Below, one piece after another: positions 11,618 to 53,882 of a DNA stretch of 64,000 bases. Origin of the DNA: Terriglobales bacterium (GTDB lineage: Bacteria > Acidobacteriota > Terriglobia > Terriglobales > Acidobacteriaceae). The notes below the pieces were generated by a model. It was not told where the DNA came from. It did not search any database and saw nothing but the letters and a program-made list of their open reading frames with translations. A program made the position numbers and the translations under genes. How positions within the stretch are numbered: position 1 is the stretch's first letter; every line of letters begins with the position of its first letter. The stretch lies in contig DASRER010000034.1 in assembly GCA_035651995.1 (NCBI GenBank), positions 1 through 64,000 of the forward strand, written 5' to 3'.

Positions 11618-12325
11618 CTACGCGCGCGACGCCGCCAGCGGCGCCTTCTCGCCCGCGCGAAACTTCTGCGCGACCTCGGCGAGCCGGCGCGCACCTTCCA
11701 CGATCTTGCCGCGATCGCCCGCGCGCAAGGCTTTCAGGTCCACCAGGTCGCCGCCCAGTCCGAGGGCGAACGCTCCCGCCGCGAAATATTCGGCGGCGTT
11801 GTTGATGTTCACTCCGCCGGTGGGGACGAAGTTAATTTCCGGAAACGGCGCCTTCAGCGCCTTCATGTATGCCGGCCCCCCGAGGTTGCTGATGGGAAAC
11901 AGCTTCATCGTGCTGGCGCCGAGCGCGGCGGCGCGCATCACTTCGCTGGGCGTGAGCACGCCGGGGAGCGAGACCACGCCGGCTTCGGTGGCCAGCTTCA
12001 CGACCGCGTCGTCGAGCCCGGGGCTGACGAGAAATTGCGCGCCGGCATCGAGGCAGGCACGCGCCGCGGCGGCATTCTTCACGCTGCCGGCCCCGACCAG
12101 CGCATCGTTGCGGTGCCGCCTGGCCAGTTCGCGAATCACGTCGAGCGCGCCGGGGACGGTCATGGTGATCTCGAGCACGGCGAGGCCGCCTTCGCGGATG
12201 GCGGACGCTGCATCAAGCGCTTCTTCAGGGGAAGCGGCACGCACTACGGGAACGATCCCAATCTCGTAAATCCGTTGCCGCACCTGGTCATGGGTCATGG
12301 TTGGCTGTTGGTCTCCTGTTCGCAT
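11618..12325 (-). CDS. eda: 2-keto-3-deoxy-6-phosphogluconate aldolase
   Basis: 235 aa TIM-barrel class I aldolase. It has the N-terminal VPVVRA strand, the LEITMTVPGALDVI segment with the catalytic-region Glu, VGAGSVKNAAAARACLDAGA, the Schiff-base Lys in TMKLFPI, and the phosphate-binding FVPTGGVNINN. It splits KDPG to pyruvate and glyceraldehyde 3-phosphate, the last step of the uronate route encoded here. The first ATG (12325) directly follows the kdgK stop codon, so translation is probably coupled. An internal ATG at 12298 matches the usual family N-terminus and may be the real start. Confidence 0.9.
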   Translation of the reverse strand: MRTGDQQPTMTHDQVRQRIYEIGIVPVVRAASPEEALDAASAIREGGLAVLEITMTVPGALDVIRELARRHRNDALVGAGSVKNAAAARACLDAGAQFLVSPGLDDAVVKLATEAGVVSLPGVLTPSEVMRAAALGASTMKLFPISNLGGPAYMKALKAPFPEINFVPTGGVNINNAAEYFAAGAFALGLGGDLVDLKALRAGDRGKIVEGARRLAEVAQKFRAGEKAPLAASRA

Positions 12326-13423
12326 TCAGCGCGCAATACGCGCGCTCACGCCCGACATCACCGCCAGCACCTCGCTCAATGTCGCCATGGTCGTGTCGCC
12401 CGGCGTGGTCATGGCCAGTGCGCCGTGCGCCGCGCCGCACTCCACCGCCCACGACGCCGGCTTGCCTTCGAGAAACCCGTAGATCAGGCCCGAGGCAAAA
12501 GAATCGCCGCCGCCGACGCGGTCGTAAATCTCCAGGTTCTCGCGGCGCGTGGCCTCGTAAAACTGCCCGTCGTACCAGCAGACCGCGCCCCAGTCGTTGA
12601 CCGTGGCGGTCTTCGCGTTGCGCAGCGTGGTCGCGACAACTTTGAGGTTTGGGAATTCCTGCGTCACCTGCGCGATCATCTTCTTGAAGTTCGCCGGGTC
12701 GAGTTCCGACAGGTTTTTGTCGAGGCCCGGCACCTGAAAGCCCAGCGCGGCGCTGAAGTCTTCTTCGTTGCCCAGCATCACGTCTATATAAGGAGCGAGC
12801 TGGCGATTCACCGCCTGCGCCTGCTTCTGCCCGCCGGCACTTTTCCATAACGAGGCGCGATAGTTCAGGTCGTAAGAAATGATGACGCCGTGCTTCTTTG
12901 CCGCCTGCATCGCCTCGGCGGCGACCTTGGGCGAGTGCTCGCTCAGCGCGCAGTAGATGCCGCCGGTGTGGAACCAGCGCGCGCCCTCCTTGGCGAAGAT
13001 CTGCTCCCAATCCACTTCACCGGGCTTGAGCTGCGAGATGGCAGTATGTCCGCGATCGGAGACGCTGAGCGCAGCCCGCACGCCGAACCCGCGCTCCACG
13101 AAATTCAGGCCGTTGCGGACGCTGCGCCCAACGCCGTCGAAACTGGTCCAGCGCAGATGGCGCAGGTCGACGCCGCCCTGGAGCATGCAATCTTCCACCA
13201 GGCGGCCCACGGCGTTATCCGCAAGCGCGGTGACCACGGCGGCGCGCATGCCGAAGCAGCGGCGCAGCCCGCGCGCCACGTTGTACTCGCCGCCGCCTTC
13301 GGAAACCTTGAAGTGGCGCGTCGTGGCCACGCGGCCGTCGCCGGGATCGAACCGCAGCATCACTTCACCGAGCGCGACAATGTCCCACTGCTTGTCGCGA
13401 CCGTGGATCTTCAGTTCGGCCAT
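12326..13423 (-). CDS. kdgK: 2-keto-3-deoxygluconate kinase (PfkB family)
   Basis: 365 aa from ATG 13423 (AAAGG upstream); the longer frame starts inside repeat-derived sequence and is unlikely. PfkB ribokinase-fold signs are the N-terminal IVALGEVMLRFDPGD, the substrate-binding GGGEYNVARGL and the anion-hole/catalytic DRVGGGDSFASGLIYGFLEG. The conserved order and the neighbours eda and kduD point to 2-keto-3-deoxygluconate as substrate, phosphorylated by ATP to KDPG. Its stop abuts the eda start. The upstream gap to kduD contains heptad element B. Confidence 0.87.
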   Translation of the reverse strand: MAELKIHGRDKQWDIVALGEVMLRFDPGDGRVATTRHFKVSEGGGEYNVARGLRRCFGMRAAVVTALADNAVGRLVEDCMLQGGVDLRHLRWTSFDGVGRSVRNGLNFVERGFGVRAALSVSDRGHTAISQLKPGEVDWEQIFAKEGARWFHTGGIYCALSEHSPKVAAEAMQAAKKHGVIISYDLNYRASLWKSAGGQKQAQAVNRQLAPYIDVMLGNEEDFSAALGFQVPGLDKNLSELDPANFKKMIAQVTQEFPNLKVVATTLRNAKTATVNDWGAVCWYDGQFYEATRRENLEIYDRVGGGDSFASGLIYGFLEGKPASWAVECGAAHGALAMTTPGDTTMATLSEVLAVMSGVSARIAR

Positions 13424-13459
13424 TCGCCCGCCTTTGTACTCGCTGTGATCGTCCGTTCC

Positions 13460-13532
13460 GCACTTAGCAGTTGGCACTTCAGCGCCGCCGTTGACGGCCA
13501 AATGCTGATTGCTAATTGCTGAGTGCCAATGG
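13460..13532. repeat. Heptad inverted-repeat element B
   Basis: Left arm 13460-13477 (CACTTAGCAGTTGGCA) and right arm 13497-13532 (units TGCTGAT, TGCTAAT, TGCTGAG, TGCC) are reverse complements with a 7-bp period around a GC-rich centre. It fills the gap between kdgK and kduD, ending about 10 bp from the kduD stop. Confidence 0.75.
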
Positions 13533-13540
13533 CCGCTTTC

Positions 13541-14305
13541 CTACCTGCCCATCCACCCGCCGTCCACCACCAACACGTGCCCGTGCACGTAATCGCTCGC
13601 CGCCGACGCCAGAAAAACCGCGGCGCCGGCCACGTCTTCCGGCTCGCCCCAGCGCTGCGCTGGAATGCGCTCCATGATCTGCCGGCTGCGCACCGGGTCT
13701 TCGCGCAGCGCCGTGGTGTTCGTCGTCTTCATGTACCCCGGCGCGATGGCGTTCACGTTGATGCCCCGCGAAGCCCACTCGTTCGCCAGCGCCATGGTGA
13801 TCTGCGCCACGCCCGCCTTCGACGCCGAATATGCCGGCACGAACACGCCGCCCTGGAACGACAGCAGCGACGCGATGTTCACGATCTTTCCCGGCCGCTT
13901 CAGCTCCAGCAGCCGCCGGCCCACCAGCTGGCTCAGCCGGAAAACGCTGGTCAGGTTCACCCGCAGTACCAGCTCCCAGTCGGCGTCGGAATATTCCGAC
14001 GCCGGCGCTCGCTTGATGACGCCGGCGTTGTTCACCAGCACATCGATGGTGCCGATCGCCCGTTCGGCGGCGAGGAACAGCTCGTGCGCGCCGCCTTCGC
14101 GCGCCAGGTCGCACTGCACCGCGGTCGCGCGCCCGCCGGCGTTCACGATGCGCCCCGCCGTATCCGACGCAGGCCGCGAATTGCCGTGGCACGCCACGCT
14201 CGCGCCGGCCTCAGCGAGCGCGAGCGCAATCGCCGCGCCCAGTCCCGCCGACGCGCCCGTCACCAGCGCCGTTTTCCCGTCCAGCCGAAAACGATCGAGG
14301 ATCAT
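13541..14305 (-). CDS. kduD: 2-keto-3-deoxygluconate 5-dehydrogenase (SDR)
   Basis: 254 aa classical short-chain dehydrogenase. It has the NAD-binding TGASAGLG near residue 16, NNAG, the catalytic Ser in NIASLLSFQGG, and Tyr/Lys in PAYSASKAG. The start MILDRFRLDGKTALVTGAS and the segment APGYMKTTNT followed by RIPAQRWGEPEDVAGAAVFL are typical of KduD. KduD interconverts 2,5-diketo-3-deoxygluconate (the KduI product) and KDG. Position between kdgK and kduI supports this. A stem-loop (14321-14348) and heptad element C lie upstream, separating it from kduI. Confidence 0.88.
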   Translation of the reverse strand: MILDRFRLDGKTALVTGASAGLGAAIALALAEAGASVACHGNSRPASDTAGRIVNAGGRATAVQCDLAREGGAHELFLAAERAIGTIDVLVNNAGVIKRAPASEYSDADWELVLRVNLTSVFRLSQLVGRRLLELKRPGKIVNIASLLSFQGGVFVPAYSASKAGVAQITMALANEWASRGINVNAIAPGYMKTTNTTALREDPVRSRQIMERIPAQRWGEPEDVAGAAVFLASAASDYVHGHVLVVDGGWMGR

Positions 14306-14320
14306 GTCTGTAGGCGCCCC

Positions 14321-14348
14321 ACCCTTCCGCCCTCCTTTGGCGGAGGGT
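14321..14348. other. Stem-loop between kduI and kduD
   Basis: ACCCTTCCGCC (14321-14331) pairs with GGCGGAGGGT (14339-14348) with a single bulged T and a 7-nt loop. It lies 15 bp upstream of the kduD start and next to element C. It could act on mRNA processing between kduI and kduD; there is no T-run to call it a terminator. Confidence 0.4.
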
Positions 14349-14356
14349 GAAATAAA

Positions 14357-14466
14357 TCAGCAATTCGCAGCTAGCATTGGCCGCTCAAATCAGACCTGGA
14401 CGGCTGAATGCCAGGTGCCAATTGCCAATTGCCGGTCTGGCAACTGATAACTGACAACCGGCAACT
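14357..14466. repeat. Heptad inverted-repeat element C
   Basis: Left arm 14357-14382 (ATCAGCA, ATTCGCA, GCTAGCA, TTGGCC), right arm 14404-14466 with units TGCCAAT, TGCCAAT, TGCCGGT, then GGCAACT, GATAACT, GACAACC, GGCAACT. Its centre shares the motif GACCTGGACGGC with element A. The terminal CTA supplies the TAG stop of kduI. Confidence 0.82.
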
Positions 14467-15304
14467 ACTTCCTCGCCTGGTCGAGTCCCGAGCCGCCCGC
14501 GCCGAAGCCCGGCTGCACGTTGACCACGCCGAACTGCCGGTCTTCCACCTCGCGGTGCGCCGCCATCGCCCACAGGAATCCAATGCGATGTCCCGGCGCC
14601 GCCACGTTCGGGTGGTAGCCGCGCGGCATGAGCACCGCGTCGCCGTCGCGCACAATCGTGACCAGTTCCGGCTCGTGCGTGTTCGTGTACACCAGCTGTA
14701 ATCCAAACGCCGGAGGAGGCATGTGCGTATACACGTACAGCTCCTCGGCCAGCACGGCGTGCTCGTGCGGCGGCCAGCTCGTCCAGTTGCCGGGCTCGGA
14801 GAGCGTGAGGCCCGCCATGATGCGCCCCGCCTTCACGTTCTTCCCGAACATGATGTTCAGCTCGCGGCGCGTGGCGTCCGACCCGGTAACGAAGTGCAGT
14901 GTCTTGTCCTGCTTGAGGTCGGCATAGCGGACGACCTGGAGCGGATAGTCGTTGTCCACTTCGGCGGCGAATTCGGCGATGTCGCAACCGGCGGCGCTCG
15001 AGATGCTGACCTGCGAATTGCGCGGAATGTAGATCGCGTCATAGGTGCCGAGCGAAATCTTCTCTTCGTTGACGCGCAATTCGGCCGAGCCGCCCACAAC
15101 GATGAGTCCGGTTTCGCGCTTCCCTGTCTCGAAGCTCACCCCGTTGCCGCCGCGATCCAGGATGGTGCGCGCATAGTAAAGGTGCTGCATGCTGCTGTTG
15201 TGCGGTGTGACAACGACCTTGCGTCCCTTGTGCGCGTTGGTCGCGCGAAAGACGTTGCCTTCCTTCGTCACCGGTTCGGCCATAACTTGGGTTTGCGTGC
15301 TCAC
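14465..15304 (-). CDS. kduI: 5-keto-4-deoxyuronate isomerase (KduI/IolB family)
   Basis: 279 aa, the usual KduI length, with a two-cupin fold: YDAIYIPRNSQVSISS in the N-terminal barrel and metal-binding WPPHEHAVLAEELYVYTHMP (His-x-His-x5-Glu) in the C-terminal barrel. The family also includes IolB (5-deoxy-glucuronate isomerase) and some Acidobacteria annotations use that name. The neighbours kduD, kdgK, eda and the lyase argue for the uronate isomerase. Its start overlaps the heparinase-like gene stop by 4 bp, so the two are translationally coupled. Its TAG stop lies in repeat element C. Confidence 0.85.
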   Translation of the reverse strand: MSTQTQVMAEPVTKEGNVFRATNAHKGRKVVVTPHNSSMQHLYYARTILDRGGNGVSFETGKRETGLIVVGGSAELRVNEEKISLGTYDAIYIPRNSQVSISSAAGCDIAEFAAEVDNDYPLQVVRYADLKQDKTLHFVTGSDATRRELNIMFGKNVKAGRIMAGLTLSEPGNWTSWPPHEHAVLAEELYVYTHMPPPAFGLQLVYTNTHEPELVTIVRDGDAVLMPRGYHPNVAAPGHRIGFLWAMAAHREVEDRQFGVVNVQPGFGAGGSGLDQARK

Positions 15305-17481: not shown

Positions 17482-18240
17482 TTACGAAAAATACATCCCG
17501 CCATTGATGTCCACCGCCGCGCCGTTCACGAAGGGCGACGCGCCCGAGGCGAGAAACACGACCAGCGCAGCAACTTCCTCGGCCGTGCCTTCGCGGCCAA
17601 GCGGCGTCATGCCGGCCACGCGCTGGCGCACTTCCGGCTTGGTGAAGGTGTCGTGAAAGCTGGTGTTGATCAGCCCCGGCGCGACGGCATTCACGCGAAT
17701 CTTGCGCGGGCCGAGTTCCTTCGCCAGCCCGCGTGTAAACGTGAGCACGCCGCCCTTGGTGGTGGAATACGCAACCGCGCCCGTGCCGCCGCCGTCGCGT
17801 CCGGCCTGCGACGCCAAATTCACGATAGCGCCGCCCTCGGCCATGTGCGGCAGCGCCGCCTGCGTCGCCAGGAAGAGCGTGCGCAGGTTCAGCGCCATGA
17901 CTTCGTCCCAGAACGCGGCGTCCATCTCTTCCATCTTCTTGCGCGCCACGATCCCGCCCGCGTTGTTCACCAGGATGTGGATTTGGTCGCCCAGCGCCGC
18001 GCGCGTTTCCTTCACCAGCTTCGCGGCACCCTCGGGCCGGCGCAGGTCGGCGGCGACGGCAACCGCATTCCCGCCGCCCGCCTTGATCTCGTTCACGACT
18101 TCCGCGGCCCGATCCGCGCTTGCCGCGTAGTTGACCGCGACAGCGGCGCCGCTGCGCGCAAGTTCCAGCGAGATGGCGCGGCCGATGTCGCGCGCGCCGC
18201 CGGTCACGATGGCAACCTTGCCTTTCAGCCCGAGGTTCAC
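17482..18240 (-). CDS. SDR-family oxidoreductase of the uronate cluster
   Basis: 252 aa from GTG 18240, which overlaps the MFS stop (GTGA) and has GGAGG just upstream. It is a classical SDR with TGGARDIGRAI (NAD(P)-binding), NNAGG, Ser in NLASQAGRDGGG, and Tyr/Lys in AYSTTKGG, ending INGGMYFS. In alginate users an SDR of this type reduces DEHU (4-deoxy-5-hexoseulose uronate) to KDG. Next to a polyuronate lyase and a hexuronate carrier this is the leading assignment, but a second KduD-like activity is equally possible from sequence. Coupled to the transporter by the 4-bp overlap. Confidence 0.8.
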   Translation of the reverse strand: MNLGLKGKVAIVTGGARDIGRAISLELARSGAAVAVNYAASADRAAEVVNEIKAGGGNAVAVAADLRRPEGAAKLVKETRAALGDQIHILVNNAGGIVARKKMEEMDAAFWDEVMALNLRTLFLATQAALPHMAEGGAIVNLASQAGRDGGGTGAVAYSTTKGGVLTFTRGLAKELGPRKIRVNAVAPGLINTSFHDTFTKPEVRQRVAGMTPLGREGTAEEVAALVVFLASGASPFVNGAAVDINGGMYFS

Positions 18241-19568
18241 GCCGTCGCCTCCGCCGCGCCAAGGTCGAGCATTTCGATCTTCGGCGTCAGCCAGAACAGC
18301 ACCGCGGCGCCGATGGGCGCCAGCAGGCCGGCGGTGATCAGCACCGGGCGGTACGAGAAGTGGTCCACCACCCAACCCGTGGCCAGAATGAACAGCATGC
18401 TGCCAATACCCGCGCCCGAACCGCCGAGTCCCGCGACGCTGCCCACTGCCGACGCGGGAAACAAATCGCTCGGCATCGCCTGCAGGTTGTTGATCCACGC
18501 CTGGAAGCCGAACAGCACCACCGCAATCCACACGAGCGCGACCATGGCGCTCTCGGCGCGCTCTGCGAGAATTCCCGCGGGCATCATCGCCGCGGAAATC
18601 AGCATGACGGTCTTGCGCGCGCGGTCCACGCTCCAGCCGCGCCGCATCAGCACGCCCGAGGCGAATCCGCCCGCGAGGCTCCCCGCGTCGGCCGCCAGGT
18701 ACGGCGCCCACGCGAACAGCCCGATCTGCGCCAGGCTGAAGCCGCGGACTTTGTTCAAGTATTCCGGCAGCCAGAAGATGTAGAGCCACCACACCGGATC
18801 CACCAGCAGCCGCGCCGCAACAATTCCCCAGACCTGGCGATACCCAAACAGGTCCCGCCAGCGCGGGCGCGTCCGCGATGTCGAAGCTGACGCCGCGCTT
18901 CCCTCTTCGATCAGTGCGCGTTCCTTCTCACCAAGCCACCGATGCTCCTCCGGCCGCCGATACACCGCCAGCCACAGCGCGACCCACAGAAATCCGAGCG
19001 AGCCGGTGATGAGGAACACGGCCTGCCAACCGAAACGATATTGCAGCCACACAATGAGCGGCGGCGCGACCACCGATCCGAGCGCGGCGCCGCTGTTGAA
19101 GATGGCCAGTCCAAACGCGCGCTCGCGCGCCGGGAACCACTCGGCGACCACCTTCGCCGCACCCGGCCAGTTGCCGGCTTCGCCGAATCCGAGCAGCGCG
19201 CGAAACAAGCTCAGCGATCCCAGCCCGCGCGCCGCCGCGTGCAGCATCGCCGCGACCGACCAGACCAGCACCGAGCAGGTGAACCCGCGCCGCACGCCCA
19301 CCCGGTCGTAGAACTTGCCGGAGACGCTGTGGCTCACCGTGTACGCCAGCAGGAACCATGTCCCCAGCGTCGCGTATTGCAAGTTGGAAAGCTGCCAGGT
19401 GGCGCGCAGCACCGGCGACAAGACCGAGATCGTCAGCCGGTCGAGAAAATTGATGAGCGTGGCCAGGAAAACCAGCCCGATGATCCACCAGCGCAGGCCG
19501 GCAACGCGAAAATCTGCCTTGGTCGCGATCCTCTCCGGCGCTGTTGCCTGCACCTGCAAAACACCCAT
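18237..19568 (-). CDS. MFS hexuronate/anion:cation symporter (ExuT-like)
   Basis: 443 aa from ATG 19568, preceded by GGAG at correct spacing; a start 21 bp upstream has no such site. There are twelve transmembrane helices. The first is RWWIIGLVFLATLINFLDRL, with the N-D/F-L-D-R signature of the ACS family (hexuronate, galactonate and glucarate carriers). The loop motifs GFGEAGNWPGAAKVV and AEWFPARERAFG are typical of ExuT relatives. It probably imports unsaturated uronates or hexuronates by proton symport. Operon with the SDR downstream. An 11-bp inverted repeat of 7-bp units lies in its leader (19589-19621). Confidence 0.88.
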   Translation of the reverse strand: MGVLQVQATAPERIATKADFRVAGLRWWIIGLVFLATLINFLDRLTISVLSPVLRATWQLSNLQYATLGTWFLLAYTVSHSVSGKFYDRVGVRRGFTCSVLVWSVAAMLHAAARGLGSLSLFRALLGFGEAGNWPGAAKVVAEWFPARERAFGLAIFNSGAALGSVVAPPLIVWLQYRFGWQAVFLITGSLGFLWVALWLAVYRRPEEHRWLGEKERALIEEGSAASASTSRTRPRWRDLFGYRQVWGIVAARLLVDPVWWLYIFWLPEYLNKVRGFSLAQIGLFAWAPYLAADAGSLAGGFASGVLMRRGWSVDRARKTVMLISAAMMPAGILAERAESAMVALVWIAVVLFGFQAWINNLQAMPSDLFPASAVGSVAGLGGSGAGIGSMLFILATGWVVDHFSYRPVLITAGLLAPIGAAVLFWLTPKIEMLDLGAAEATA

Positions 19569-19588
19569 CCCCCGCTCCAGATCAAACA

Positions 19589-19628
19589 AGTGGAGAGTGT
19601 TCTAACTGTTCACTGTCCACTACTCACG
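19589..19628. repeat. Short heptad-type palindrome in the MFS leader
   Basis: AGTGGAGAGTG (19589-19599) and CACTGTCCACT (19611-19621) are reverse complements with one mismatch around an 11-nt loop. The right side continues in steps of seven (CACTGTC, CACTACT, CACGG). It sits 20 bp upstream of the MFS start, between IclR and the carrier gene. Confidence 0.6.
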
Positions 19629-19678
19629 GCCGGCGGTCTCGGTCTGTTCTGCCGGATGCGCCGCGCCCGGTACCTCGG

Positions 19679-20485
19679 CTAACGCGCCGCCCGCCGCTTC
19701 GCCATCCGGAATCCCAGCTCCGACGAGAGCGCTTCCGCCGCCGCCGTCACCGAGCGCGCCAGCAGCGGCACCTTTTCGTTGCTCACGCGGAACGACGGCC
19801 CTGAGACGCTGATGGCCGCCAGCGGCTCGTGCGTGTAGCCCCACACCACCGCGCCCACGCAGCGCACGCCCTCTTCGTTTTCTTCGTTGTCCACCGCGTA
19901 GCCCTGCCGCCGGACTTTCGTCAGCTCGTTGCGCAGCTCCGCCAGCGTGGTGAGGGTATGGCGCGTGAGCGGCCGCATGCCGATCCTCTGCACCGCGCGT
20001 TCCACCTCGGCGGCGGGCAGCGACGCCATGATCGCCTTGCCTACCGCGGTGCAGTACGCCGGCGTCCGCCGGCCGATGCTCGACGCCAGGCGCACACTGC
20101 GCTCCGGCTCGACCTTGTCGACGTACACAACCTCGCCGTCGTCGTAAACGCACAGGTGCGCCGTCTCGCCGGTTTCCATGACCACGCGCTCCAGGTACGG
20201 ACGCGCGCGCTCGCGAATATCGAGCTGCGAAACGGCGCGCGTGCCCAGCTCGAACAGCTTCAGCCCGAGCCGGTAGCGCCCCTCGCCGTTCTTCTCGATC
20301 AGACGATGGCGCTCCAGCACCATCAGCAACCGGTGCGCCGTGCTCTTGTGCAGCCCGAGCGCGCGCGACACTTCCAGCAGCGACATCCCGGGACCCTTTT
20401 CCGTTAGGATTCCCAGCACGCCGAGGGCGCGGTCAAGCACCTGGATCTGATAAGGAGAACGGGGTGTGGTTTTACTATGCGGCAC
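19679..20485 (-). CDS. IclR-family transcriptional regulator (KdgR-like)
   Basis: 268 aa. The N-terminal winged helix (about 15-75) contains SLLEVSRALGLHKSTAHRLL, the IclR recognition motif. The C-terminal effector domain (about 90-260) has SSIGRRTPAYCTAVGKAIMA and GYAVDNEENEEGVRCVGA, both typical. It is the last gene of the uronate cluster on this strand, and KdgR of enterobacteria is an IclR protein sensing KDG, so a KdgR-like role is inferred. The start GTG at 20485 lies only about 9 bp downstream of the -10 box, so the mRNA is probably leaderless. A palindrome (GGCACGGCGTGCC) overlaps the start and suggests autoregulation. Confidence 0.9.
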   Translation of the reverse strand: MPHSKTTPRSPYQIQVLDRALGVLGILTEKGPGMSLLEVSRALGLHKSTAHRLLMVLERHRLIEKNGEGRYRLGLKLFELGTRAVSQLDIRERARPYLERVVMETGETAHLCVYDDGEVVYVDKVEPERSVRLASSIGRRTPAYCTAVGKAIMASLPAAEVERAVQRIGMRPLTRHTLTTLAELRNELTKVRRQGYAVDNEENEEGVRCVGAVVWGYTHEPLAAISVSGPSFRVSNEKVPLLARSVTAAAEALSSELGFRMAKRRAAR

Positions 20486-48550: not shown

Positions 48551-51130
48551 TTACTTCTGCGCGGCGGCGCTCCGCGTTGCCGGCGCGTTCTTGTGCGCGT
48601 CGAGCCAGAGCAGCGCGTCGAGCAGATAGTACTGGCCGTAAATCAGCATGCCATCGTGCGGGCGGGTGCTGGAGCCGTGGCGCAGCACCCCCGGCGGAGT
48701 CGTGTCGCCCTGCGCGACCGGCGTCAGGTAGCGATCAATCAGGCTCTGCGCTATGGCCTCGCCCTGCCGGCGGTAACGCGAGCGGTCTTTTTCCGGCGCC
48801 AGTTCTGAAAGCCGCAGCAGGCCGCCGGAGATGAGGGCGGCGGCCGAGCTGTCGCGGTTGCGGAAGCGCACGCCCTCGTCATAGAAGTCGTACCAGGGGA
48901 CGCTGTCTTCGGGGAGGTTCTGCACGACGAAGTCGGCGATGCGCTGCGCGGCGGAAAGCAGCCGCGGATCGCGCGTTTCCCCGTAGGCGACGGTGAAGCC
49001 GTAGAGCGCCCACGCCGTGCCGCGCGACCACGGCGTATCGGCGGCGAAGCCCTGGTGCGTGTGAGTGAAGATCCATTCGCCCGGCGCGGCGCTGTTGGGC
49101 GCCGTCACCTTGTTGTTGAACGGCGCGCCACCGCGGAGCGTGAACTCCTGGCGGTTGTCGCCGGGATTGTAGTGCACGCTCTGGATCACCGACCCATCGG
49201 GCCGAATGAGCCACTCGGCCGAGCGCAGCGCGTGCTTGAGGCCCATGTCGCGCCACTTCTGTTCGCCGGTCTGGCGAGTGGTCCACCAGAGCAGTTGCAG
49301 GTTCATCATCGTGTCGATGATGGTGTCGTCGCCGTTCACGTCCCACGCGGGAATGAGCTGCGTGGTCGGGTTGTACAGCTGCTCCAGCCGGGCGGCGGCG
49401 CGGAGCGCGCTCTCGCGATCGGCGGGCCGCTTCGTCAAGTCGAAGCCGAGCGCAGTGGAGTAGAAGTAGAGGAAGCCGGCGTCATGGTTTTGCTCTTTTT
49501 CGTGGCCGGCGAGGCGCGACGTCCACAGCTCGGCCCAGCGGCGATACTTTTCGTCGCGCGTGCGCTCGTACATACGCCAAAGTTCGGCCGTCCAGAACGA
49601 TCCGGTCCAGAAGAACCCTTCGCGGCGCGTCCACTCGCCGGTGGAATTGTCGCCCTCGGTGAAAAAACCGGGGCCTCGGTTGGTGGCAGAGGCTTCGGGC
49701 GCAGTGGCGGAGACGACCGGCTCCCACTTCTGCGCGGTGCGGTCAATTTCCTGACGGAGAAGATCAATTGCCTCGGCCACGGTCTTGGTGTGCGCCGGGT
49801 GGAGCGTGTCAGGCGGCGCTGACTGCGCGGCGGCGGACTTGGAGAGCATTGTGACACGCGCTGGATGGGCCATGGCGTCCGCCTGCGCACGGACCACGGC
49901 GAGGAAGGCGTCGCGTGTCTTCATCGCGGTGCTCGGCAGCACGTACGACTGGCGCTCGCGCTGCTCGTTCTGCGCCCCGAAGCCGTGGCGGTTGTTGCTC
50001 CCCTCTTCGCTCCACGCGGCCATGGTGTACCACTCGGCCCCGCCGTTGTTGAGGGCGAAGCGGACGAGAAAATTTTCCTTGTCGCTGGTGAAGCTGGCGC
50101 CGGGTGCGGCAGTAAGGACGGCGAGACCGAGGTTCTGTCCGGCGATGGCTTCGGTCGCGGTCGGTCCGGGCGCGACAACCTGCTCGCCCCACGTGGCGAG
50201 CCACGCGATGGGCGCGGTCGATGCAGTTTCAGGATTCAGCCCGGCCTTGAGCGGAAGGCCGGTCACGTAGGTCGCGGGAAACGCCGGCTGCGCCGAGATT
50301 GCCTGCGTGAATCCGCGCTCGCCCGCCCACTGCGTTATGCGCGACGTCAGCGTGACCTTTTGTCCGCCAACGCTCCAGCCGCCGTACTCCAGCTCGACGA
50401 TGGCGCGCACGGGCCCTGACGAGAGAATGCGCCACTGGCGATTGGCAACATCGGCGACCTTGACAACCTTGCCGTCGACCAGCGCCGCGACCGAGCCGAT
50501 GCCGATGGCGTCGCCCACCTTATAGATGTCGCGGCCCTCGGGCGATTCGTAGTGGTAGCCGTAGTCGGGCGAAGCGAAAATGTGGAGCTGCATCGTCAAT
50601 CGCCGCTTGCCGTAGAGGTCAATCGCGTTGCGCGGATCGAAGTACACGCGCCAGGCGTTCAGGTCCGATTCCCATCCGAGGCCCTCGATCTTGCGGCTGA
50701 AGAGCGCGTTGGTGCGCGCAGGATAGTCGGCGCGCAGGCGCCAGATGCGGTCTTCGTCGCCGTAGGAAATGGTGACGACGCGTTTCTGGCGCGGCTTGAG
50801 CGGAACCTGGAAGGCGAACTCCTCGGCCTTGCCGTCGGCGTCCAGGTCGTCGGCCTGCGAGGGCAGTTCGGCGGCCTGGAGGACGGCGGCGTCGCCTTCG
50901 ATGCTGTCGGCATCGGTGACGGTCACGATGGCCGAGCCGGGCTTGAAGTCGGGCGCGACCGCGCGGAGGTCTTTGATCGGAACCACGACGTCCGCGGTGC
51001 GCGCGGCATCGCCGGGATTTTCGACGAGCAGCTTCACGCCCTTGATGTGGCCGGCAGCAAGGGCGGGCACGGCAAGCAGCAGCGCAGCGGCAACAGCGAG
51101 CGGTTTTCTCATGATGTGAGTCGGCGTCAT
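48551..51130 (-). CDS. Secreted DUF4861-GH88 fusion, unsaturated uronyl hydrolase
   Basis: 859 aa with a signal peptide ([20 protein letters not shown] from the ATG at 51112; ATG 51130 also possible). Residues about 30-400 form a DUF4861-like beta-rich domain ([39 protein letters not shown]). Residues about 465-850 are a GH88 alpha6/alpha6 barrel with [16 protein letters not shown] and [20 protein letters not shown] carrying the family's catalytic Asp residues. GH88 removes 4,5-unsaturated uronic acid from oligosaccharides made by lyases. DUF4861 proteins occur in pectin/uronate loci; the two are usually separate genes. Co-transcribed with the MFS carrier 6 bp upstream. Confidence 0.85.
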
Positions 51131-51136
51131 GCGACG

Positions 51137-52444
51137 TTACTCGATGCGCGCGGGTTCCAGGCGGGGCGCAAGCAGGTGAATGATCGCGAGCGCCGTCAGG
51201 TAGGCGCATCCGGCGATGATGAACGGAACGGTATAGCTATGCGTGCGCTGCAAAATCGGCCCGACGATGGCGGCGATGGTCATCCCGCCCACCGCGCCCG
51301 CCATGCCGCCAATCCCCACAACGGAGCCGACCGCCTTGCTTGGAAACATGTCTGACGGGAGCGTGAACAGGTTGGCGGAGAACCCCTGGTGCGCGGCGGT
51401 GGCGAGTCCGATGAGCAGCACCGCCGTCCACATGCCCTGAACGTGCGGCGCCATCACAACGGGAAGGACGCACAGCGCGCAGATCGCCATGGTGAACTTG
51501 CGGGCGCGGTTCACGTTGTTGCCGCGCTTGATCATGGCGGAGGAGAGCCACCCGCCGGCCACACTGCCCACGTCGGCAATGATGTAAATCACCATGAGCG
51601 GCACGGCGATCTGGGCCAGCGAGAGGCCGTGCTGCGACTGCAGGAACCCCGGGACCCAGAAAAGGTAAAACCACCAGACCGGATCGATGAGGAACTTGCC
51701 GATGCCGAAGGCCCACGTCTGGCGATGCGGAATGAGGCCTGCCCAGCGGATTTTTTCCACGGGCGGCTGCGGATCGCTGCGGATGTATTCCAGTTCGGCG
51801 CGCGAGCAGTTCGGGTGGTCCTCCGGTTTGCGATACAACCACAGCCAGAAGATGAGCCACACGAAGCCGACGGCGCCGGTGACGATGAACGCCCAGCGCC
51901 AGCCAAGGTGCAGCGTGATCCAGGGAACGATGAGCGGCGTGACGATTGCGCCCACGTTCGTCCCGGCGTTGAAAATGCCGGTGGCGAAGGCGCGTTCTTT
52001 CTTCGGGAACCACTCGGAAACGGCTTTGAGGCTGGCGGGAAAGACGCCGGCTTCACCGAAGCCGAGCGCGGCGCGGGCGGCGCCGAAGCCCGCGACGGAG
52101 CCGGCGAAGGCGTGCGCCATCGAGGCCAGGCTCCAGAAGACCATCGCCGCGGCGTAGCCGATCCGCGTGCCGAGCCGGTCCATGAGGCGTCCCATCGCCA
52201 GCATGCCGGCGGCATACGCGGCCTGGAAGAAGAGCACCAGGTTGGCGTAGTCCACTTCGGTCCAACCGAGATCGTGCTGCAGCGTGGACTTGAGGACGCC
52301 CAGCACCTGGCGGTCCATGTAATTCTTGGTGGTGCCGAGCAGGAGCAGCGTGCAGATGACCCAGCGAAACCACCCCACGCGCGTGGCGGGAGACACCGAT
52401 GCAGGAGCGGCGACGGCGGCAGCGGCAGTGCGTTCGGTGTCCAT
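51137..52444 (-). CDS. MFS hexuronate transporter (ExuT-like), second copy
   Basis: 435 aa from ATG 52444; the frame is open to 52516 but that part lies in leader sequence containing no ribosome-binding site. Twelve transmembrane helices with ACS-family motifs: RWVICTLLLLGTTKNYMDRQ in TM1, ARAALGFGEAGVFPASLKAV and SEWFPKKERAFATG. Paralogous to the carrier at 18237-19568 (same family, low-level identity by eye). It probably imports the uronate released by the GH88 enzyme encoded 6 bp downstream. Transcription should start near 52634 and must pass the terminator-like hairpin at 52535-52554 to reach it. Confidence 0.88.
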   Translation of the reverse strand: MDTERTAAAAVAAPASVSPATRVGWFRWVICTLLLLGTTKNYMDRQVLGVLKSTLQHDLGWTEVDYANLVLFFQAAYAAGMLAMGRLMDRLGTRIGYAAAMVFWSLASMAHAFAGSVAGFGAARAALGFGEAGVFPASLKAVSEWFPKKERAFATGIFNAGTNVGAIVTPLIVPWITLHLGWRWAFIVTGAVGFVWLIFWLWLYRKPEDHPNCSRAELEYIRSDPQPPVEKIRWAGLIPHRQTWAFGIGKFLIDPVWWFYLFWVPGFLQSQHGLSLAQIAVPLMVIYIIADVGSVAGGWLSSAMIKRGNNVNRARKFTMAICALCVLPVVMAPHVQGMWTAVLLIGLATAAHQGFSANLFTLPSDMFPSKAVGSVVGIGGMAGAVGGMTIAAIVGPILQRTHSYTVPFIIAGCAYLTALAIIHLLAPRLEPARIE

Positions 52445-52521
52445 CGATTCGGCCAAACAGCGCGATGCGCGCGGCGACCCGGCGATACTGCATTGCGGTA
52501 CGGAGTTTTGCCGCACGCGCG

Positions 52522-52634
52522 AAACAAATAAAATGCTCGGCTATTCTGCCGAGCGCGAACAACCGCTGCAAGTTGCGGACTGATTCATCGGGGTCCCGGC
52601 CGCACCCGCAAGCGCGTCTTACGATGCGGCACAG
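52522..52634 (-). ncRNA. Attenuated leader or small RNA upstream of the hexuronate MFS
   Basis: A strong minus-strand promoter (-10 at 52646-52641) predicts transcription from about 52634. At 52554-52535 the RNA forms GCTCGGC-AGAATA-GCCGAGC, a perfect 7-bp stem, followed by ATTTTATTTGTTT (52534-52522), a good intrinsic terminator. The resulting RNA would be about 110 nt. It contains a 15-codon leaderless-type ORF (GTG 52632 to TGA 52585). Either it is a transcription attenuator of the MFS-GH88 operon or an independent small RNA; sequence alone does not decide. Confidence 0.6.
52535..52554 (-). terminator. Intrinsic terminator in the MFS leader
   Basis: A 7-bp perfect stem with a 6-nt loop and a T-rich tail (ATTTTATTTGTTT) on the minus strand, located between the promoter at 52641-52668 and the MFS start codon at 52444. 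Confidence 0.7.
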
Positions 52635-52668
52635 CACGGCATTATACGAGACGCTGACGCAGAGTCAA
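52622..52668 (-). promoter_or_regulatory. Promoter-operator of the MFS-GH88 operon, shared with the IclR gene
   Basis: Minus strand: TTGACT (52668-52663), 16-bp spacer, TATAAT (52646-52641), followed by GCCGTGCTGTGCCGCATCG. The IclR promoter has TATAAT followed by GGCACGCCGTGCCGCATAG. The core GTGCCGCAT is invariant and similarity continues a few bases further (GTAAGAC versus GTAAAAC). Probable binding site of the IclR regulator. Confidence 0.72.
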
Positions 52669-52697: not shown

Positions 52698-53882
52698 ATG
52701 AATGGGTTTCGATCCGCACGCCGGCTTGCCGTGACGATGATTGTTTTCACGATGTGTTCCGCGGTTTGCGCGCAACAGCCGGCGGCGATCGCGGCCACGC
52801 CGCCGATGGGATGGAACAGCTGGAACCACTTCAACAAGAGCGTGGACGACGCTACCATCCGCGCGCAGGCCGATGCCATCGTGTCCAGCGGCATGCGCGA
52901 TGCCGGCTATCTCTACGTGAACATTGACGACACCTGGGAAGGCGAGCGCGACGCAAACGGCGTGCTGCGCTCCAATAGCAAGTTTCCCGACATGAAGGCG
53001 CTGGCCGACTACGTCCACAGCAAGGGACTGAAGATCGGCATTTATTCGACTCCCGGTCCGAAGACGTGCGCCGGCTTCGAAGGCAGCTACGGACACGAAG
53101 AGCAGGACGCACAGACGTGGGCCGACTGGGGCATCGATTATCTGAAATATGACCTGTGCGGACTGCGCGACATGATGAAAGCCGCACCGTCGCCGGAAGC
53201 CGCGCACAAGCTGATGGTGGATTCCTACATCAAGATGCGCGATGCGCTGCGCAAGACGGGGCGCCCGATCGTTTACAGCCTGTGCCAGTACGGTAATGAC
53301 GCGGTGTGGCGCTGGGGCGCCGACGTGGGCGGCAACCTGTGGCGCACGACCGGCGACATCAGCGACCGCTACGCGCGCATGGAGACGATCGGCTTCAGCC
53401 AGGCGGGACTGGCCAGGTTCGCCGGCCCGGGACACTGGAACGATCCTGACATGCTCGAGGTCGGCAACGGCGGCATGAACACGGAGGAGTACCGCACCCA
53501 CATGAGCCTGTGGGCCATTCTGGCGGCGCCGCTGCTGGCCGGCAACGACCTGACCAAAATGTCGCCCGATACCATCGCGCTGCTGACCAATAAGGAAGTG
53601 ATCGCGATTGACCAGGACCCGGCGGGCATGCAGGGCGACCGCGTCTGGGCCGAGGGATCGATGGAGATTTGGGCGCGTCCCCTGGCCGATGGCTCGAAGG
53701 CGGTGGGCCTGTTCAACCGGCATCCACAGCCGATCCAGATGGAGGTGAAGTTCAAGGACGTGGGCTTCGCCGGAAAGCCGAAGGTCCGCGAAGTGTGGGC
53801 CGCGAAAGACCTGGGCGCGCTGGAGAGTTTTTCGGCGCGAGTACCGGCGCACGGCGTAGTGCTCTTGCGCGTGTCGAAGTAG
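52698..53882 (+). CDS. Secreted alpha-galactosidase, GH27
   Basis: 394 aa with GAGGAG upstream of ATG 52698 and a signal peptide (residues 1-25). The GH27 barrel has PPMGWNSWNHF, YVNIDDTWE, IGIYSTPGPKTCAGFEGS, the nucleophile Asp in DYLKYDLCG, and the acid/base Asp in GHWNDPDMLEVG. The C-terminal beta domain (about 310-394) is complete. It hydrolyses terminal alpha-galactosides (melibiose-type or galactomannan side chains). The galactose released would be taken up and used by the symporter, GalK and GalT encoded downstream. Confidence 0.94.
   Translation: MNGFRSARRLAVTMIVFTMCSAVCAQQPAAIAATPPMGWNSWNHFNKSVDDATIRAQADAIVSSGMRDAGYLYVNIDDTWEGERDANGVLRSNSKFPDMKALADYVHSKGLKIGIYSTPGPKTCAGFEGSYGHEEQDAQTWADWGIDYLKYDLCGLRDMMKAAPSPEAAHKLMVDSYIKMRDALRKTGRPIVYSLCQYGNDAVWRWGADVGGNLWRTTGDISDRYARMETIGFSQAGLARFAGPGHWNDPDMLEVGNGGMNTEEYRTHMSLWAILAAPLLAGNDLTKMSPDTIALLTNKEVIAIDQDPAGMQGDRVWAEGSMEIWARPLADGSKAVGLFNRHPQPIQMEVKFKDVGFAGKPKVREVWAAKDLGALESFSARVPAHGVVLLRVSK

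Follow-up and report, generated by a model that had tools for sequence, protein, structure and literature searches.

The segment ahead of the MFS transporter gene in the 64,000-nt window (the whole stretch of DNA that was analyzed) is very probably what remains of a KdgR-like regulator gene of the iclR family, which formerly stood before the transporter and has lost its body. Its promoter and start codon are homologous to those of intact iclR genes, the gene body with its HTH and effector domain is missing, and a terminator and then a predicted operator follow in the order seen behind intact iclR copies (Table 1). The initial annotation had interpreted these parts as an attenuator or a small RNA gene. 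The TTGACT-16-TATAAT promoter on the minus strand, the short GTG-started frame and the 7-bp stem with its T-rich tail, all of which it had reported, were confirmed, and its transcript of about 110 nt is plausible, at about 114 nt by the positions of promoter and terminator. This part of the window has the look of an ordinary gene relic and is best explained as one, rather than as a purpose-built attenuator or small RNA.

Table 1. Features of the transporter leader and of related genes in the window.
Feature	Position	Strand	Remarks
Sigma-70 type promoter, TTGACT-16-TATAAT	52641..52668	-	11/12 consensus matches; taken as iclR-derived
Conserved iclR start block, TATAATGCCGTGCTGTGCCGCATCGTAAGAC	52616..52646	-	-10, leaderless GTG start and codons 1-6; pattern search in 348 genomes
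15-codon GTG frame, VPHRKTRLRVRPGPR	52585..52632	-	First ~7 residues match IclR N-termini
57-nt remainder from iclR start to terminator	52555..52611	-	iclR body, including SPYQIQVLDRAL and HTH, absent; presumed deletion scar
Second 15-codon frame, ATG, MNQSATCSGCSRSAE	52541..52588	-	Stop codon within terminator loop
Intrinsic terminator, GCTCGGC-AGAATA-GCCGAGC	52535..52554	-	Tail ATTTTATTTGTTT at 52534-52522; taken as former iclR terminator
Predicted IclR operator, GTACCGCAATGCAGTAT	52485..52501	-	Centre 49 nt upstream of transporter ATG; PWM score without own site 24.1
MFS transporter (D-galactonate/hexuronate type)	51137..52444	-	ATG 52444; orthologues align from residues 1-26 on
iclR1, intact KdgR-like regulator	19679..20485	-	Start block shared; TTGAAC-17-TATAAT, GTG start

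The match to iclR was first reached by comparing the leader with the regions upstream of other genes in the window, in which the start of iclR1 at 20485 (TATAATGGCACGCCGTGCCGCATAGTAAAAC) matched the leader block. When the 31-nt pattern was searched in 348 family genomes with zero to three mismatches allowed, it gave 11 matches, against none for the control; nine of the 11 stand at the start of a full-length iclR gene, including two in the window's own genome, and the remaining pair consists of the window site and a stub in another genome (G028:C50). A genome-wide scan with the 17-nt core returned two exact matches (the window site and iclR1) and one with a single mismatch, at the start of iclR2 on contig C4, while matches with three mismatches were mostly at background level. 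Both hexamers and the 16-nt spacing are identical ahead of iclR in G077, G167 and G194, and iclR orthologues in other genera share the same -10 element, with the GTG start 8 nt behind it. Because the GTG follows the -10 so closely, these genes would be leaderless. In leaderless genes the -10 box precedes the start by about 12 bp, and Acidobacteria are among the groups listed as having such genes (PMC3160421); the window and the iclR genes, each with the GTG 8 nt behind TATAAT, agree with this arrangement, except that the frame in the window is cut to 15 codons.

The reading frame carries the same signal. Its N-terminus, VPHRKTR, matches IclR N-termini (VPHSKT, or VPHRKTR itself in G028:C82), and when both IclR proteins of the genome were compared with the window remnant by tblastn, VPHRKTRLR, the nine N-terminal residues, was alone in register. 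In the 57 nt that separate start from terminator, we looked for the 3' end of iclR and recognized none. The ATG-started second frame at 52588-52541 is probably due to chance. The sequence of the stub differs from both other iclR copies of the genome, which can be set against the worry that a misassembly in the 48-contig draft produced it, and a second copy of the whole segment, as expected of a repeated element, was not found in that genome.

A separate stub lies at G028:C50:6692-6722 (minus strand; L279), where an iclR start block that belongs to no iclR gene opens a 58-codon frame and is followed by the operator-like ATACCGCAATACGAAAC (score 17.5) and then by a TonB-receptor-like gene. It is apparently an independent stub of the same design as the one in the window.

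The downstream end of the segment was compared with intact iclR genes of four relatives (G077, G167, G194 and G213). In each, a T-tailed hairpin lies behind the iclR stop codon, and a 17-bp palindrome that is GTACYGCAATGCGGTAC or closely resembles it lies 32-33 nt beyond the stem; the distance in the window is 33 nt. The scanner likewise called two of these terminators, in G167 and G194, and was silent on those of G077 and G213, which were read by eye. Alignment of terminator plus operator to G194 was equalled or bettered by only three of 2000 shuffles, and the operator aligned significantly with that of G077. G213 and G167 do not align at the terminator or the operator, so that in these two cases order and spacing carry the argument. 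A position weight matrix built from the other sites ranked the window operator first in 814 kb of the genome; the next site outside the training set scored 14.8, and the sole other high-scoring site, behind iclR2, was part of that set.

The palindrome has the properties of an IclR-type operator, lying upstream of target genes and being shared with other regulon members, and we predict from its sequence that 52501-52485 is the IclR operator of the transporter gene. Its location agrees with the range of -20 to -80 given for IclR-family operators (PMC8222616). Like the group 1 operators of that family, which are of the GTNCG-N5-6-CGNAC type (PMC8222616), it is a palindrome with GT..C..G half-sites, but its half-site, GTACYGC, corresponds inexactly to the GKTYCRY of that source, whose text does not mention Acidobacteria. 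Nor is it the same as the KdgR site of gamma-proteobacteria, RWWGAAACGNCGTTTCAKKA (PMC8222616). The initial annotation gave no definition of its operator-like block: the only perfect dyad within 52522-52668 is the terminator, and the convincing predicted operator lies just outside that span.

Two further observations concern these palindromes. Behind the iclR gene of G028 (L282:5002-5018, G028:C6), the palindrome reads ATATCACGATGTGATAT, not GTAC..GTAC, which suggests a diverged operator. At L274 and L275 (G167 and G194), tandem half-sites, TGCGGTAC-n3-GTACCGCA and similar, lie beside the operator and possibly form a multi-box IclR site.

We also considered that the start block is itself a mere IclR operator, which happens to precede the transporter as well, so that no gene was lost. 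The block and the operator motif overlap in register (GTGCCGCAT... versus GTACCGCAA..., score about 10), and the block is conserved at noncoding positions upstream of the GTG, as an operator would be. However, it includes the GTG and six in-frame codons, elsewhere it is confined to iclR starts and one other stub, and the terminator and second operator come in iclR order and spacing, all of which make this explanation improbable.

The terminator was evaluated against the rest of the genome, for which all statistics rest on 809-814 kb of a 3.66-Mb draft in 48 contigs. It consists of a 7-bp stem (six G-C pairs), a loop of 6 nt and the tail, and both its stem energy (-13.1 kcal/mol) and its tail score fall inside the range of the genome's gene-end terminators. 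It is one of 44 strict terminators in 809 kb and the sole one found there between two divergent genes; most of the other noncoding ones directly follow a gene of the same orientation. The hairpin therefore looks genuine, given its gene-end-like energy and tail, yet its place in a divergent gap is odd, and a terminator stranded in such a gap is what would be expected of a gutted gene. One candidate relationship of the hairpin was discarded: its palindrome shares 13 of 14 bases with the region upstream of iclR1 (CTATTCTGCCG..), but two matches against 0.3 expected were unconvincing.

Promoters matching the consensus at 11 or more of 12 positions number only four in 809 kb, and a promoter and terminator 30-200 nt apart occur together once, in the window (86 nt from the near-consensus promoter to the terminator), and never in three shuffles. 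This unique unit would suit a free-standing small RNA, about 114 nt long and carrying one hairpin at its 5' end and another at the terminator, and the predicted 116-nt RNA folds better than its shuffles (z -2.9). With the terminator removed, however, z is only -1.2, and the first bases of the RNA are the start of a protein gene. An Rfam covariance-model search of the leader matched no riboswitch or other known RNA, and BLAST searches of 61 and 398 genomes gave short chance matches only, with a sequence homologue in none of the 398 family genomes. A dedicated small RNA is thus not supported. We regard a small RNA gene as the least probable of the readings weighed here.

In attenuators of the trp and his type, a promoter is followed by leader-peptide frames, a terminator and then the operon, and the window has this order of parts. 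A conditional attenuator would start transcription at about 52635 and stop it at the terminator unless translation of the leader or another signal blocks the hairpin. Besides the gene-end quality of a terminator that stands between a strong promoter and an operon, such an attenuator could draw on the ATG frame, which ends in the terminator loop, on a weak alternative pairing that is possible before the 3' arm is made, and on the strong promoter that also precedes the transporter in three relatives (G091, G177 and L064). Against this, the alternative fold is less stable by about 10 kcal/mol (-36.8 versus -47.2 kcal/mol for the terminator fold), so the window lacks the stable antiterminator of the known systems; a regulatory codon run, with which a leader peptide might sense uronate, is not obvious in either 15-codon frame; and the parts are accounted for by their homology to a regulator gene. 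Moreover, the leader terminator is absent from all 31 close transporter orthologues (at least 62% identity), among which two pattern matches both fell within upstream coding sequence. Our literature search on attenuation at hexuronate genes and on small RNAs in Acidobacteria yielded nothing relevant. We thus consider attenuation very unlikely. The initial annotation had proposed two control layers, of which the repressor is plausible in view of the IclR-type operator and attenuation is unsupported.

Across the leader, the transporter gene faces a divergent alpha-galactosidase gene of family GH27 (52698-53882). Next after it comes a gene for a DUF4861 protein, and a ManD-type dehydratase is encoded nearby. 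The proposed MFS-GH88 operon stands as to the MFS gene; for the downstream protein the match to DUF4861 is strong and that to Glyco_hydro_88, at 17.2 bits, is below the 26.6-bit cut-off. This protein (859 aa, 48551-51130) has DUF4861 at its N-terminus and the sub-threshold Glyco_hydro_88 match in its C-terminal half, and two polysaccharide-processing domains may be fused in it.

A divergent pair of GH27 and transporter genes like that of the window was found only in G091, L064 and G177 (the G177 sequence equals that of L064); related loci of the same family are annotated as Terriglobales/Acidobacteriota. These three have TTGACA-18-TATATT ahead of the transporter, with unrelated leaders that lack the leader terminator. 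Neither an iclR remnant nor the operator was found when both were sought at these syntenic loci, and the arrival and decay of iclR may therefore be confined to the lineage of the window. Homology between the GH27-transporter gaps of L064 and G091 and that of the window was rejected, since the promoters align with scores within those of shuffles (303 and 81 of 1000).

The initial annotation had noted that a separate promoter between 52520 and 52444 would speak against it; no consensus promoter is visible there. This, together with the strong promoter kept directly before the transporter at the related loci, raises the possibility that the transporter has captured the iclR promoter and is driven by it through a leaky terminator, without controlled attenuation. 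Although compatible with a relic, such a capture seems unlikely, as the terminator looks as strong as gene-end terminators and an operator centred 49 nt before the start points to a controlled promoter belonging to the transporter itself, such as the genes behind iclR in relatives seem to possess.

An iclR start followed by elements of iclR-like order, form and spacing, with no body in between, is most simply accounted for by an internal deletion. We propose that a third iclR copy stood before the transporter and that the deletion removed its coding body, leaving the strong promoter, the leaderless GTG start, about seven codons, the terminator and, 33 nt on, the operator. The old iclR promoter may still, and probably does, produce a stub RNA of about 114 nt, ending where the old terminator stands, and the transporter operon would most likely be regulated at its operator by the surviving paralogues, iclR1 and iclR2.

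The intact regulators of the genome and of its relatives have matches to the IclR HTH and C-terminal domains and, weakly, to the NCBIfam models KdgR and BhcR. No regulator score reaches the curated cut-off of either model (iclR1 scored 179 bits against the 275 of the KdgR equivalog NF011671), and "KdgR-like" is consequently used as a description, not as a claim of membership. A kduI-kduD-transporter-aldolase cluster begins with iclR in G077 and G028, which fits a uronate regulator. In domains and in this gene context the proteins resemble the KdgR-like IclR regulators of pectin and uronate use; the window differs in that it keeps only the gene start and, presumably, the terminator.

iclR1 lies immediately ahead of another MFS transporter gene (window 18237-20485), whose product is 37% identical to the 51137 transporter. 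A cluster of kduI, SDR, PfkB-kinase and KDPG-aldolase genes lies at 11618-15304, and no good operator copy (three mismatches or fewer) was found ahead of it. The intact iclR2 (G000:C4:48427-49369; L234, L285) is followed, 54 nt past its stop codon, by GTACCGAATTGTGGTAT and then by a TonB-receptor-like gene, which is likely to be a member of the same regulon.

It is doubtful that gutted iclR genes are kept as cassettes, making a short RNA or titrating IclR ahead of regulon genes; such cassettes would need at least two origins (the window and G028:C50), with an almost perfect start block preserved in the window, and we hold this to be a slim prospect. More generally, a regulator gene in decay can be mistaken for an attenuator or a small RNA gene, with promoter, mini-frame and terminator being leftovers of a lost body. 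Our results suggest that regulator copies ahead of regulon genes come and go, and they provide GTACYGCAATGCGGTAC as a testable candidate operator for the IclR protein regulating uronate use in this family of Acidobacteriota.
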